From NCBI GenBank assembly GCA_012517315.1, contig JAAYVE010000045.1:1-64000 (forward strand): a stretch of 64,000 bases of DNA, in the 5' to 3' direction. This document shows positions 2,207 through 29,975 of the stretch, piece after piece. The DNA comes from Deltaproteobacteria bacterium (GTDB lineage: Bacteria > Desulfobacterota > Syntrophobacteria > Syntrophobacterales > Syntrophobacteraceae). Position numbers and translations under genes: made by a program. Under the pieces are notes generated by a model that was given only the letters and a program-made list of their open reading frames with translations, was not told the DNA's origin and made no database searches. How positions within the stretch are numbered: position 1 is the stretch's first letter; each line of letters starts with the position of its first letter.

Positions 2207-5200
2207 CTAAGCGAAGATCGTGATCCGGCTCACACCCTTCCGGTGCTCCTCTACACGGATCTGGGTTGGAATCTCGTCGGCCAGCCGCTTCACATGGGAG
2301 ATGACGCCCACGGTCTTGCCGTTGGCTCGAAGAGACTTGAGGGTTGCGATGACCTTGTAGAGCGTCTCTTCGTCCAGAGTCCCGAACCCCTCGTCAAGGA
2401 AAAGGGATTGGATTTTCCGGTTTTTTCCGGCCATTTCCGATAGGCCCAGGGCCATACAAAGGCTCACCACGAAGAGTTCGCCTCCTGAGAGGCTTTTCAC
2501 GGAGCGCAGTACTCCACCCTGAAGGGAGTCTCGTACCACAAGGCCCAATCCGTTTTCATCCTGGGCGTGAAACTGGTAGCGTTGGCTGCTGAGCGTGCTG
2601 AGATAGCCGTTGGCGTATTGGATCAGCCGATCCAGCATGAGGCGTTCCAGCCTGCCGCGGATTTGAGGGGAATCTGCGGACCGGAGCATCTCTTCCTCCG
2701 CCACGGCCTCCCCCCAAACTTTTTCCTGCTGGGCGATGGCTTGAAGGAGTTCATCGTGGTCACGCTCCGCCCTATGGATGTGCTCCATGGTCTGTTCGAG
2801 TTCGAACCTCCTCTCCCGCAGCGTTTGAATGCGTTTGATCCAGTCGTCCACGCGGCGCCGAATGGACTCGAGCGAATCGGATGTTTTTTGTTCCCCACGG
2901 ACGGACTCCAGTTCTCTGTGGACGGTTTCTCCCCGGGAGCGAGCGGCGGCCAGTCTCTCCTCGGTTGCCTGCAGCTCCTCTCTGAGTTTTGGTTCCGCAT
3001 CCGCCAGAGAAAGCTCGTGCCTCATCTCTTCGACGGACGAAAAGCCCGCCCCCGCCCCCTCTTGCAGGGCCTCTTGTTCCGCCTCCATCATGGCGGAACG
3101 GAGCGACTGCAGGTGTTCGCCCAGTCCTTGGAGTTCCTGCCGGTCGTTCGTCAGTTGCTCTGAGACGGCCTTGAGCTTCCGGGTGAGGTCCTCCTGCTCC
3201 TTTTCCATTGCCCGAATTTCGGCTTCCATGACCTGAAGGTGTTCGTCGCGTTCCAGGCAATCCCCCGTTTGTTGCGCTTTGAGAGCGGCCGATTCCATCT
3301 CATTTTGAAGCGCCTGCTTCCGAGCCTCAAGGGTTTCCCGTTCGCTCAGCAGTTGATCGTGGCTCTGAATGCGCTGCAGGATTTGCTGAAGGAAAGCCTC
3401 CTCGGTTTCTGAAACGGGGGGGTGCTCCCTGAAAGGACGGAGGAGAAATTCCATTTCAGACAAGAGGGATGTCTCCGCAGACCGGAGTTTTTCAATGTCC
3501 CCGTCCAGTGCCTGGAGCGTCCTGTGCTCACCGTGGTGCCGTTCTTTCAGCTGTTCTTTTCTCTCCTCGTGCCGCGCGAGCGTGGATTCCCTTCGGACCA
3601 AGGAACGCTCTCCCCAAAAGGCCCGCCATCTCTGCCACCGAACGGAACGCAAGCGCTTCCCAATGTCCTTGAGGGCCGTCCTGTGTGTCTTCCGGGCGTG
3701 CTGCACACGTCCCATGTCCGGTTCGGGCCAGTCAAAGCCGGCGTCAGCGCATGCTCTCGCCCACTCTCCCGTGATCCTCTCCATTTCCGCCGACTGCTGT
3801 GTCAGTTCGGCTGCCTTGGTGATCTCTTCATCCAGCCTCTTGCTCAGCTTGTCCATGTTCTGTCTACGGGCTTCCACCGTCCGGTCCAGTTGGCTGAAGT
3901 CCGGCAGACCTTCTTCCCGGTAGGGGTGCTGGAGGGAGCCGCACAGGGGACAGGCCTGTCCCGGCTTGAGCGAGGCCCGCTCCGCATGAAGCTTTCGGAC
4001 CCTTTCGCGTAGGTCGATCGCTTCCGCGAATTCAATGAAGTATGCCTCCTCCTGGGCGAGTGACTCTTTGAGAGTCGCGATTTCCGATTGGGCTCTCGCC
4101 AGTTTCTCCTGCACCTCCTCAGGAGAACCGTATGCCTTGTGGCGGCGGGCGAGTCTTCCCAGTTCCCGGCAGACGGTGAGCTTCTTGCGGTGCTCACCCG
4201 CCGCCGCCTTCCAGTCTTCCCTCTTCCTGCCTTCCAAAAGTTCGGCGATGCGTTCCACTCGGTTCGTCTGTCGGGCATTCAGCCGCTTCAATTTTTCCCT
4301 GAACGATTGGACGGTGCGTTCTTGTTTTGCGAGATCGCGGGTGGCACGCTGCTCCGCCTTGAGAGATGCGGGTCTTTCCTGCAGCCTTTCCGCAAGCTGT
4401 TGCCTGACGGACTGGAGTTGCCGCAATCCGGCCTCGATCTCCTCCCTGCGTTCCTTGAGATGGACGTCGTTTGAACGGGCGGAAAGACGATTCTCAAGGG
4501 CTTCCCGGGCCTTTTCAAGATCCGCCATGTCCCGCGCCAGTTTGCTTTTCCGCTCATGGTGATGCTTTCGGACCGCTTCCGCCGCCCGTTCCCGGTTTGC
4601 CTGCAATTGGTTGAGCCCCTGCTTCATTTGGTCTTCACATGCCCGGGCTTCATCCTTCCCACGTTGGATCTTTTCTTCCAATTCCGCACAGCGCTTTTTC
4701 GTGGCCGACTCCTCGGCTTCGAGGGTCTCCAGGCGCTGGAGCGTCTCACGAAAGGGAATTGCGCGCTGGGCCTTCGTGGCGCTGAGGATCTGCCGGTTCA
4801 GTTCCTTGCAGCGCTTTTCCAAATCCGCCGACGTCGCCACGGCATGGTGTTCTTCGGCCTCAAGGCGCTCCATGGCTTCGAGCCACTCTTGCAGTTCCTG
4901 GAGTTCATGAAGAGAACGTTCCCCTTCGGTCATTTCCTCGTCCGTCAGCTCCAAATCCCTCTGTGTTTGTTCTTTTCTCCCGCGACTCGAAGCCTCATAG
5001 GCGGCGGCCGACTCCCTGAGACGTCCCAGTTTTTCTCCCTCGGCAGCAACCTTCGAACGGATGGACTGAGCGAGGTCCTCCATCATCTCCGGACCGACGA
5101 TCTTTTCCAGGATCTCCAGTCGTTCGCTTTCCACGGCATTCAGGAAGGTGGCGAAATCACCCTGTGCCAGAAGGATGGACCGGCAGAAACGTTTGAAGTC

Positions 5201-27622: not shown

Positions 27623-27922
27623 GATGCAATCCCGAGTGCTCAAAGAAAAAAAGAGAGAAGGCTGAACACTGTGTCTCTTGCCGAAATCAACGTTTTCAAC
27701 GAACTCTTTCGGTGAACATCATTATGTTCAAAAGACATCAGCTTTGCAATGACCGCGAGATTGTGTTCAGGCAGCAAACGGTTCCCGTAACTCAATTCCA
27801 TGGAAATCGCTGAAAACATCTTGACCGCCTTCTGGGTCGATTGTTAAATACAGCGGACTGACAATGGCAGGGGCCGGGATCGATGGCCCAGAACATGAAT
27901 AGGGGTGAAAAGGGGAACGTTG

Positions 27923-28465
27923 ATGGCTCGATGGGTATTTTTTTTGTTTTTGGCTTCATGGTGCTGTCTGGCCACAGGCTGTTCCAGCGTGTCCGCATCT
28001 GCGGGGAGTGTCATTTCCGCAGCGCGGGGGGTGTTTGGCGAAAGGACGGAGAAACCGGAGAGTTCCGGGGAGAAGGCACAGGTGTGCATGCTCACGCCGA
28101 CCCCCGAGGTCCAAGCTCTTGTTGGCGAAGGGACATCCTCCGGCGGGATCCAGGGATCCTGCATCCAGGTTCCCCAGACAGCCCACGATTTTGGTCAGAT
28201 TCAGGGAGAAGTCGACCTGACTCACGATTTCAAAGTGGTGAACCGTTGTGAGACCAAGGTGAAAATCAAATCCGTTCGACCTGGTTGAGGGACAACGGTC
28301 ACCCACTTCGATCGGGTGATCCCTCCTGGAGGGGAGGGAAAGATTACGTTGGGACTCAATCCAAAGGCCTGTTCGGGCGATGTCAAGAAATATACTCTCG
28401 TGAAGGTGGATGACCCGCAAAGGCCCAGTTTTGTTCTGGTCCTGGAAGGTCAGGCCAAACTTTAA
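27923..28465 (+). CDS. DUF1573 lipoprotein with in-frame TGA, probable selenoprotein
   Basis: The 180-codon frame encodes a lipoprotein precursor (MARWVFFLFLASWCCLATGC, lipid Cys20) followed by a DUF1573 immunoglobulin-like domain from about residue 85 (TAHDFGQIQGEVDLTHDF). At codon 122 (28286-28288) it meets TGA, and the same frame then continues as a perfect second half of the domain (THFDRVIPPGGEGKITLGL...KKYTLVKVDDP) to a TAA. DUF1573 proteins carry a conserved Cys-Gly-Cys here, as I recall, so the site reads PG-U-GTT. A hairpin begins inside the TGA. Selenocysteine insertion is the best reading; a nonsense mutation is the alternative. Start is fixed by AGGGG seven bases upstream. Flavodoxin and rubrerythrin genes follow, which fits a redox role in the cell envelope. 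Confidence 0.8.
28287..28325 (+). promoter_or_regulatory. Candidate bacterial SECIS hairpin
   Basis: Starting with the GA of the TGA codon, GAGGGA (28287-28292) pairs with TCCCTC (28320-28325), and TCACCC (28299-28304) pairs with GGGTGA (28314-28319), leaving a 6-base internal bulge and a 9-base apical loop ACTTCGATC. Position and size fit a bacterial selenocysteine insertion element, which lies directly after the UGA within the reading frame. The loop has its G at position 6 rather than in the first two bases, so it departs from the usual consensus. Confidence 0.6.
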
Positions 28466-28510
28466 GGCAGAGTTCCCTCCGGCGGTTGCCGCTCCAAAGA
28501 ATCCTTTAAT

Positions 28511-28557
28511 CCCCCTGCCGTTCGCGTTGCGGAACCAACTCGCGAACGGCACGGGGG
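28511..28557 (+). terminator. Long hairpin after the DUF1573 gene
   Basis: GCCGTTCGCG (28517-28526) pairs with CGCGAACGGC (28541-28550), extended by T-A and five C-G pairs with one bulge, giving a stem of about 16 bp around a 14-base loop. TCTTT follows only some bases later, so termination efficiency is uncertain. Confidence 0.6.
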
Positions 28558-28896
28558 ATATCCTCTTTCTCCCTGAGCCGCTTCAGAATGAAAGAGTCTC
28601 CTTTTTTTCGCAGGAATGCAACGTTTTGGGTTCCCCCGGCGTTTCATTGCCGGAGCATCCCGTGCACGACTCACTGACTTCCGGCACTCCATCGACTGCT
28701 CGCTCCGACCGCTTCCTTGGGCTCACTGTGCTCCCGCATGGAAACAGTCCTTCCCGTACCGCTTCCATAGGGGCTTTCACGGAAGGCATTCCAAGCGGAT
28801 CGGCGGGTTTTGCATTGACACGCTTGACGGTCGGTTCTTATCCTACAGCCAATTTAAGTTCGTTTCTTGTTCCCAAACCCCGTGCAGGAGGAGAAC
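28558..28896. other. Intergenic stretch with a candidate flavodoxin promoter
   Basis: Within this gap, TTGACA (28815-28820), an 18-bp spacer and TATCCT (28839-28844) point at the flavodoxin gene about 50 bp downstream. The rest shows no gene that I can support. Confidence 0.5.
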
Positions 28897-29343
28897 ATGG
28901 CGAAAGCACTCATCGTTTATGCCACGAGGAAGAATGCGACCAAATCCATTGCGGAACTCATCGCCGAAGGGATGCGGTTCGGGGGGGTGGAGGTCACGGT
29001 CCTGAACGTGGCCGATGTGGAGAAGATGAAACCGGACTTGAGGTCGTTCGACGCGATTGTCCTCGGTGCGCCGACCTATCACGGCGAGATGCATCCTGCC
29101 ATGAAGACCTTTCTCTTCTTTGCTGAAAATGCGAACCTGGAGGGAAAGGTAGGGGGTGCTTTCGGTGCCTATGGTTGGAGCGGCGAGAGTGCCGGCCGCA
29201 TTTATGAGACCATGAAGAACATCTTCAAGATGGACATGGCTTCGGGACCACTGATGCTTAAGAGTGCGTTCATTGGCGGGGGCATCCAAATGGCCCAGAG
29301 TTACGGAAAAGAGATCGCCAAGAAACTGGGAGCATCCCTTTGA
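28897..29343 (+). CDS. Flavodoxin-domain protein
   Basis: The 148-residue protein has the flavodoxin layout: phosphate-binding loop IVYATRKNATKSIAELIAEG near the N-terminus, FDAIVLGAPTYHGEMHP around residue 60, and FGAYGWSGESAGRI near residue 95, the latter two surrounding the FMN ring. This arrangement resembles flavodoxin domains of flavodiiron proteins or small FMN electron carriers. It should carry electrons between reductases and partners in the cytoplasm. GGAGGAG precedes the ATG at 28897; ten codons upstream in frame are not supported. It sits just before a rubrerythrin gene, which suggests a role in peroxide or oxygen reduction. Confidence 0.9.
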   Translation: MAKALIVYATRKNATKSIAELIAEGMRFGGVEVTVLNVADVEKMKPDLRSFDAIVLGAPTYHGEMHPAMKTFLFFAENANLEGKVGGAFGAYGWSGESAGRIYETMKNIFKMDMASGPLMLKSAFIGGGIQMAQSYGKEIAKKLGASL

Positions 29344-29465
29344 GGGTTGCCCGCTCGGGAGCGGTGCCAACTTCAATGCGTCTCTTTTCTGGGGCGAACT
29401 TCAGCGGCTATGGTGTCCCCGTTCACGATTCATGTTTCTCAACCCTTTGAGAATGGAGAGATGTC

Positions 29466-29975
29466 ATGGGTACCCAGGGAAACCTCATCAAGATTTTTGA
29501 GTATGCCTTGAACCAGGAGTACACGGGAAAGGGGTTTTTCGAGTTTTCCCTCCAGCGGATGGGCTTTGGTGCTGCGGTTTCGGCTTTCAAAAAGCTCATC
29601 GAGGAGGAGGAAAAGCATATCGCTTTCATCACCAAGATCCTCGACAATTTGAAGCGGGGAGAGTCTCTCGAACCTTCCACCATGAAACAGATCACCATGG
29701 AGCCGACCAACTTTTTCGATGAACGGGCGAAATCCGAGTTCCTCGAGCAGTGCATTCAAGGATCCATGGTTCCCGATGTGACCGTTTTCAACACGGCGTG
29801 GCTCATTGAGAAGGACATCAGCGAATACTACAGCAATGCGGCTATGCAGGTCGAGGGCCCCGCCAAGAATGCCTTGTTGATGCTCGCAGACTGGGAGAAA
29901 GGTCACGAGAAGTTCTTCAGGGAATTTCGCGATAAGATCTCGGAGACTTATTCCCGGATGCCCTGGGGGGGATAG
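29466..29975 (+). CDS. Rubrerythrin-type diiron protein without rubredoxin domain
   Basis: The 169-residue protein is a four-helix ferritin-like diiron protein. Candidate iron ligands lie in EYTGKGFFEFS, EEEEKHIAF, EKDISEYYSN and DWEKGHEKFF, that is, paired E..E/H motifs on helices 1-2 and 3-4. No C-terminal CxxC rubredoxin pair is present, so it needs an external electron donor; the flavodoxin gene just upstream encodes a plausible one. Such proteins reduce hydrogen peroxide in anaerobes. GGAGAGATGTC precedes the ATG. The gap to flavodoxin is 122 bp, so they may form one transcript. Confidence 0.85.
   Translation: MGTQGNLIKIFEYALNQEYTGKGFFEFSLQRMGFGAAVSAFKKLIEEEEKHIAFITKILDNLKRGESLEPSTMKQITMEPTNFFDERAKSEFLEQCIQGSMVPDVTVFNTAWLIEKDISEYYSNAAMQVEGPAKNALLMLADWEKGHEKFFREFRDKISETYSRMPWGG

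Follow-up and report, generated by a model that had tools for sequence, protein, structure and literature searches.

The locus considered here poses the question of how an in-frame TGA is read in a gene that continues beyond it and, if the codon specifies selenocysteine (Sec), with which residue the selenol might cooperate. The gene is located within the 64,000-nucleotide stretch of DNA that was analysed (the window). Its frame opens with ATG at 27923, encounters TGA at 28286-28288 as codon 122, and closes with TAA at 28463-28465, giving a read-through product of 180 residues. The frame continues past the TGA to the TAA as stated in the preliminary description of this DNA, although the interval comprises 58 sense codons and not the 59 codons counted there. 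The features of the gene are as follows.

27923..28465, + strand: DUF1573 gene of 180 codons, predicted to encode a selenoprotein, with TGA read as Sec and a TAA stop
27911..27915, + strand: Shine-Dalgarno-like AGGGG, purine-rich, 7 bases 5' of the ATG (sequence)
27968..27982, + strand: lipobox LATG-C (Cys20) with Ser at +2 (sequence; the lipobox Cys is aligned in many short-form relatives)
28166..28450, + strand: DUF1573 Ig-like domain (HYDIN/ASH/MSP-type), residues 82-176 (Pfam, AlphaFold, fold match)
28286..28288, + strand: UGA probably read as selenocysteine, residue 122, motif P-G-U-G-T (frame and homologue alignments)
28287..28325, + strand: bacterial SECIS hairpin (fold, pairing and slide controls, covariation)
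28370..28372, + strand: codon for Cys150, the distal cysteine and proposed partner of Sec122 (alignments, counts, tree)

Soon after the stop codon, a GC-rich inverted repeat without a T run (gccgttcgcg ... cgcgaacggc; window 28510-28560) is a possible transcript end.

DUF1573 sequence had been recognized on both sides of the TGA, and the read-through protein matched the Pfam family (PF07610) continuously over residues 82-176 with a score of 54.2 bits (E 1.6e-14), which exceeds the gathering threshold of 26.1. As TGA is the normal stop of many neighbouring genes in the window, the codon is recoded locally and a genome-wide change of code was ruled out. For standard gene callers the frame ends at codon 121, which is how the gene would appear if the TGA were a nonsense mutation in a pseudogene or a sequencing error. 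However, the same TGA recurs in dozens of relatives and also in L019, an orthologue from the same genus in another assembly whose whole protein shares 56% identity with the window protein. Homologues were detected in 47 of the 60 relatives searched, the majority with exactly one TGA in the same column, and ~80 of 95 homologues in relatives had a single TGA at the column of codon 122. Comparison of the window gene with L019 over the 57 codons 3' of the TGA yielded a dN of 0.10 and a dS of 1.18 (dN/dS about 0.09). Strong purifying selection acts downstream of the TGA. Instead of all stopping at this point, the homologues run past it, and those without Sec mostly have Cys at the Sec column, as in L066, L083, L087, L088, and L104. 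The Sec/Cys exchange anticipated at codon 122 was evident in the alignments, in which Sec or Cys is conserved in the column with few exceptions, and this exchange excludes a nonsense mutation. Thus, a pseudogene or sequencing error, which the conserved TGA and the downstream selection both rule out, is scarcely credible.

The hairpin beginning inside the TGA that was noted previously folds as described. The lower stem pairs 28287-28292 with 28320-28325 and includes the GA of the UGA, and the upper stem pairs 28299-28304 with 28314-28319 to enclose a 9-base apical loop (28305-28313, ACUUCGAUC). The caveat attached to this loop was well placed as it opens with A-C and has no G in the first two bases. 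By the published rule for bacterial SECIS (bSECIS) elements, to which exceptions are acknowledged (PMC13188914), one of the first two bases of the loop is G, and the window hairpin departs from this rule. Nevertheless, no more than 13 of 26 short forms and 21 of 44 long forms begin the loop with G. The published loop rule therefore fits the OS_HP2/DUF1573 family poorly and, with the G found at this position in about half of the forms, its absence from the window hairpin is not disqualifying. A search of the window with Rfam recovered tRNA only, with no SECIS-type family above threshold. Folding energies were mildly better than those of codon-shuffled controls (mean z of -0.91 for Sec short forms and -0.42 for forms without Sec), and folding energy was set aside as too weak to be the sole evidence of a SECIS.

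The pairing pattern in homologues addressed the helix directly. In the 70 Sec homologues that align without gaps, 81-86% of upper-helix cells were paired, and the figure fell to 30-49% once one side was offset by one to four bases. When every pair of variable columns was scanned without bias, the strongest covariation belonged to 15-33, numbered from the T of TGA. Both are third-codon positions that face each other inside the helix, and they are paired in 55 of 69 sequences against an expectation of 28.4. In addition, the first proline codon of the I-P-P segment is CCT in 53 of 70 sequences, which completes the pairing with GAGG. With the helix backed by covariation at third positions, the hairpin at 28287-28325 is judged to be a genuine SECIS which, starting inside the UGA, would help codon 122 to be read as Sec.

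Translation of UGA as Sec presupposes sel genes, as the preliminary description recognized, and selA, selB, selD, and tRNA-Sec were all found in the window's genome (G000; 4.43 Mb, 61 contigs, 99% complete). The selA gene is on C45 (633 bits), and C56 carries a canonical tRNA-Sec whose anticodon is UCA. Two selD genes are present, of which one on C51 has no in-frame TGA and the other (L211, G000:C42:27607-28530) does. There are three selB matches, on C25 (378 bits), C28 (278 bits), and C43 (245 bits). A further selB-like match on C53 is EF-Tu, and tRNA-Sec-like matches proved to be tRNA-Trp on C28 and tRNA-Ser on C31. The SelB-like gene on C28 (L105:2097-4100, - strand; G000:C28), which makes a third in the genome, specifies 667 aa, scored 278 bits, and has no adjoining tRNA-Sec.

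The last of the three selB matches, that on C43, is adjoined by a second tRNA that ARAGORN called as tRNA-Sec.

L010:1498-1589; L106:1505-3514 and 3591-3682 (G000:C43), - strand: selC*-like tRNA and second-type selB; anticodon UCA, A73

The acceptor of the C43 tRNA has 8 pairs and an A is bulged from its T stem, features that resemble selC* tRNA-Cys. The latter has been described for Syntrophobacterales, as has the Cys identity of such tRNAs (PMC7609411). As the window's genome has a SelB gene with an adjacent, divergent UCA tRNA, an alternative is that the UGA is decoded in the window's genus by this second tRNA with insertion of Cys or another non-Sec residue. Homologues in the order accord with this proposal, as they are selC* tRNA-Cys whose GCA anticodon and U73 denote Cys identity (G026, G028, and G030). 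In contrast, the tRNA of the window's genus has A73 and not the U73 of tRNA-Cys. Moreover, a DNA search revealed that the tRNA is absent from G004, G006, G008, G011, and G015, yet short-form TGA genes occur in four of these genomes (G004, G006, G008, and G015). Genomes G006 and G015 each consist of a single contig, on which one canonical tRNA-Sec was found and one SelB exceeded the cut-off. Decoding by the selC*-like tRNA is improbable on this evidence. As short-form TGA genes persist in relatives that lack the tRNA, Sec is the likely reading of UGA in the branch. It is very doubtful that, in the window's genus, the selC*-like tRNA with UCA and A73 acts with its own SelB to insert, at this or another UGA, an amino acid other than Sec and Cys; if this were true, UGA would be recoded in two ways within one genome.

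If codon 122 specifies Sec, the motif in the window protein is U-G-T and not U-x-C, and the preliminary description accordingly envisaged a single isolated selenol. This did not hold. Residue Cys150, which is part of an NPK-x-C-x-G motif, is invariant across the 29 Sec sequences of an alignment of short relatives (A1) and probably is the pair of Sec122, so that a lone selenol was ruled out. Other cysteines were rejected as partners because Cys80 and Cys109 are confined to the window protein and L019, and Cys55 to the nearest subset of relatives. The distribution of cysteines was assessed in 130 distinct Sec-DUF1573 proteins: U-G-C occurs alone in 99, the distal Cys alone in 27, and both together in four, and no protein lacks both. 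A further 14 Sec proteins, drawn from other families in the phylum, all possess U-G-C without the distal Cys. The distal forms comprise 138-248 residues and the others 197-485, many with about 350, and the forms of ~350 residues have what look like extra Ig-like domains when counted by eye. Five members of this series reside in the window's genome. Two are long, with CGC (L083) or UGC (L063); L070 is short and combines UGC with the distal Cys; and L060 and the window gene are both short distal forms. The best explanation of these patterns is that the partner cysteine was relocated in this branch from the U-x-C position to a site 28 residues downstream.

The history of the two cysteines was followed in a phylum-wide tree constructed by a quick method and in a smaller, careful tree. 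The short forms were one branch with support of 94/96 in the careful tree, placed beside long U-G-C forms of the same family, and this branch was nested among OS_HP2 long forms in both trees. The basal member of the short branch, L092, has U-G-C and no distal Cys, and the sequences with both cysteines (L070, L079, L081, and L091) branch early. At least two separate parts of the branch lack the +2 Cys, and the distal Cys is present each time. Furthermore, L087 and L088, which are sister to a Sec sequence (96/84) and nested inside the branch, have Cys instead of Sec and Phe instead of the distal Cys. As read from the trees, the distal Cys was gained first, the near Cys was lost next, and the distal Cys disappeared in turn upon loss of Sec, which is the order that a functional Sec-Cys pair predicts, with the qualification that counts of changes are not fully independent because the trait columns were included in the trees. 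The distal forms are one clade, all members of which were found within a single family (f1) that is Syntrophobacteraceae-like. The intermediates survive in living genomes, with U-G-C lacking the distal Cys, both cysteines, the distal Cys only, and reversion to Cys accompanied by loss of the distal Cys all represented, and the redox pair of the OS_HP2 family thereby becomes a testable hypothesis.

Certain homologues have neither Sec nor Cys at the TGA column. In the short-form relative L029 (L029:1501-2034, - strand; G025:C91) TGG (Trp) replaces the Sec TGA and the distal Cys is kept; this one-base change is either a recent loss or a sequence error. The long forms L036 and L101 (G005 and G013) possess Thr or Ser in place of Sec and are one supported pair in the phylum-wide tree, a placement that assigns loss of the reactive residue to one lineage.

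The AlphaFold model of the window protein has seven strands, with block means of 88-98 pLDDT from residue 81 onwards. By strand order, the loop that follows the third strand (C-D, between strands 113-120 and 124-129) holds Sec122, and that following the fifth (E-F, between strands 138-145 and 155-162) holds Cys150. In an Ig-like sandwich the C-D and E-F loops are at the same pole, and the loops that bear Sec122 and Cys150 are expected to share one pole of the modelled fold. The closest solved structure is 2qsv (Z 12.0, rmsd 1.9 over 98 residues), and other fold matches were to axonemal central-pair (HYDIN-type) domains, Ig domains of VesB/VesC, CEP192, and MSP domains. None of the matched structures is informative on redox chemistry.

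The N-terminus is a signal peptide with the lipobox LATG-C20, and a simple lipobox pattern is present in 16 of 27 distal-form proteins. The lipobox bears out the export and lipid anchoring implied by the earlier designation as a surface-exposed lipoprotein, but surface exposure does not follow from it. Upstream neighbours of the window gene are shared with L019/L108 but not with wider relatives. Operon context was set aside as a clue to the substrate on these grounds, and comparison of the relatives' loci revealed no conserved neighbour gene that points to a substrate or partner. Flavodoxin-like and rubrerythrin-like genes are situated about 400 bases downstream (window 28867-29975) and do not adjoin the gene in the wider relatives examined.

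The proposal of a DUF1573 lipoprotein with Sec at codon 122 is supported by the sel genes, by the lack of a stop in homologues, and by Sec/Cys conservation. With a probability of roughly 0.8, the window gene encodes an exported lipoprotein in which UGA at codon 122 is translated as Sec via the SECIS, Sec122 and Cys150 are a redox pair, and the protein belongs to a short, single-domain branch of OS_HP2 with a relocated resolving Cys. In the mechanism that we infer, Sec122 would make the nucleophilic attack on an oxidant such as a peroxide or disulfide, Cys150 would resolve the product to a selenenylsulfide, and the latter would be re-reduced afterwards by a periplasmic thiol reductant. The reaction would occur on a lipid-anchored protein of the cell envelope, and the window protein is probably an atypical two-residue peroxidase or thiol oxidoreductase. 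The pairing of Sec122 with Cys150 is probable on the basis of co-occurrence, order of loss, and loop positions. Thiol and selenol groups of exported proteins are able to bind metals, and the selenol instead might bind a metal or be resolved by another protein or a small thiol, with Cys150 conserved for other reasons. This alternative is unlikely in view of the presence of the distal Cys in every Sec protein without the +2 Cys and its absence from nearly all with the +2 Cys, and of the loss of the distal Cys along with Sec in L087 and L088. The Sec122-Cys150 pair thus is preferred. In this probable selenoprotein of an anaerobe, gene callers would end the chain at residue 121, and the branch amounts to a natural experiment on a conserved selenium site whose partner cysteine has changed.

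DUF1573 (OS_HP2) proteins reportedly were recognized as potential selenoproteins by Zhang and Gladyshev in 2007 and 2008. The family had been named already, with the motif given as UxC or UGC (PMC2398784, PMC9312934, PMC13188914). Thus, the DUF1573 selenoprotein family is not new, and the branch with the relocated partner Cys is the new part; no description of this branch was found in the OS_HP2 literature, the alignment of the 2007 primary paper being outside that search. The best NCBIfam model for the window protein was NF041425, 'OS_HP2 family (seleno)protein', at 74.9 bits, which is below the cut-off of 100, and other short forms tested singly also fell below the cut-off. In common with OS_HP2/DUF1573 selenoproteins (NF041425; PF07610), the window branch has the same domain, the presumed Sec at the first position of U-x-C, and a SECIS directly after the UGA. 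It differs from the published UxC/UGC forms in having mostly U-G-T/S with a conserved Cys 28 residues downstream, and in being single-domain and often a lipoprotein. The long paralogue in the window's genome, L063 (G000:C7), possesses a homologous Sec domain, TGA, and hairpin, but has U-G-C, Tyr at the Cys150 site, and 347 residues, and passes NF041425 with 121 bits. The window's genome resembles the selC* tRNA-Cys/SelB* systems of Syntrophobacterales (Mukai 2017; reviewed in PMC7609411) in its second-type SelB with its own tRNA, whereas UCA with A73 in the tRNA of the window's genus contrasts with GCA and U73 in those systems. Finally, the proposed logic, in which a catalytic Sec or Cys is resolved by a second Cys of the same chain, is that of MsrA and atypical 2-Cys peroxiredoxins, although here it would operate on a predicted Ig-like fold and not on a thioredoxin or MsrA fold.
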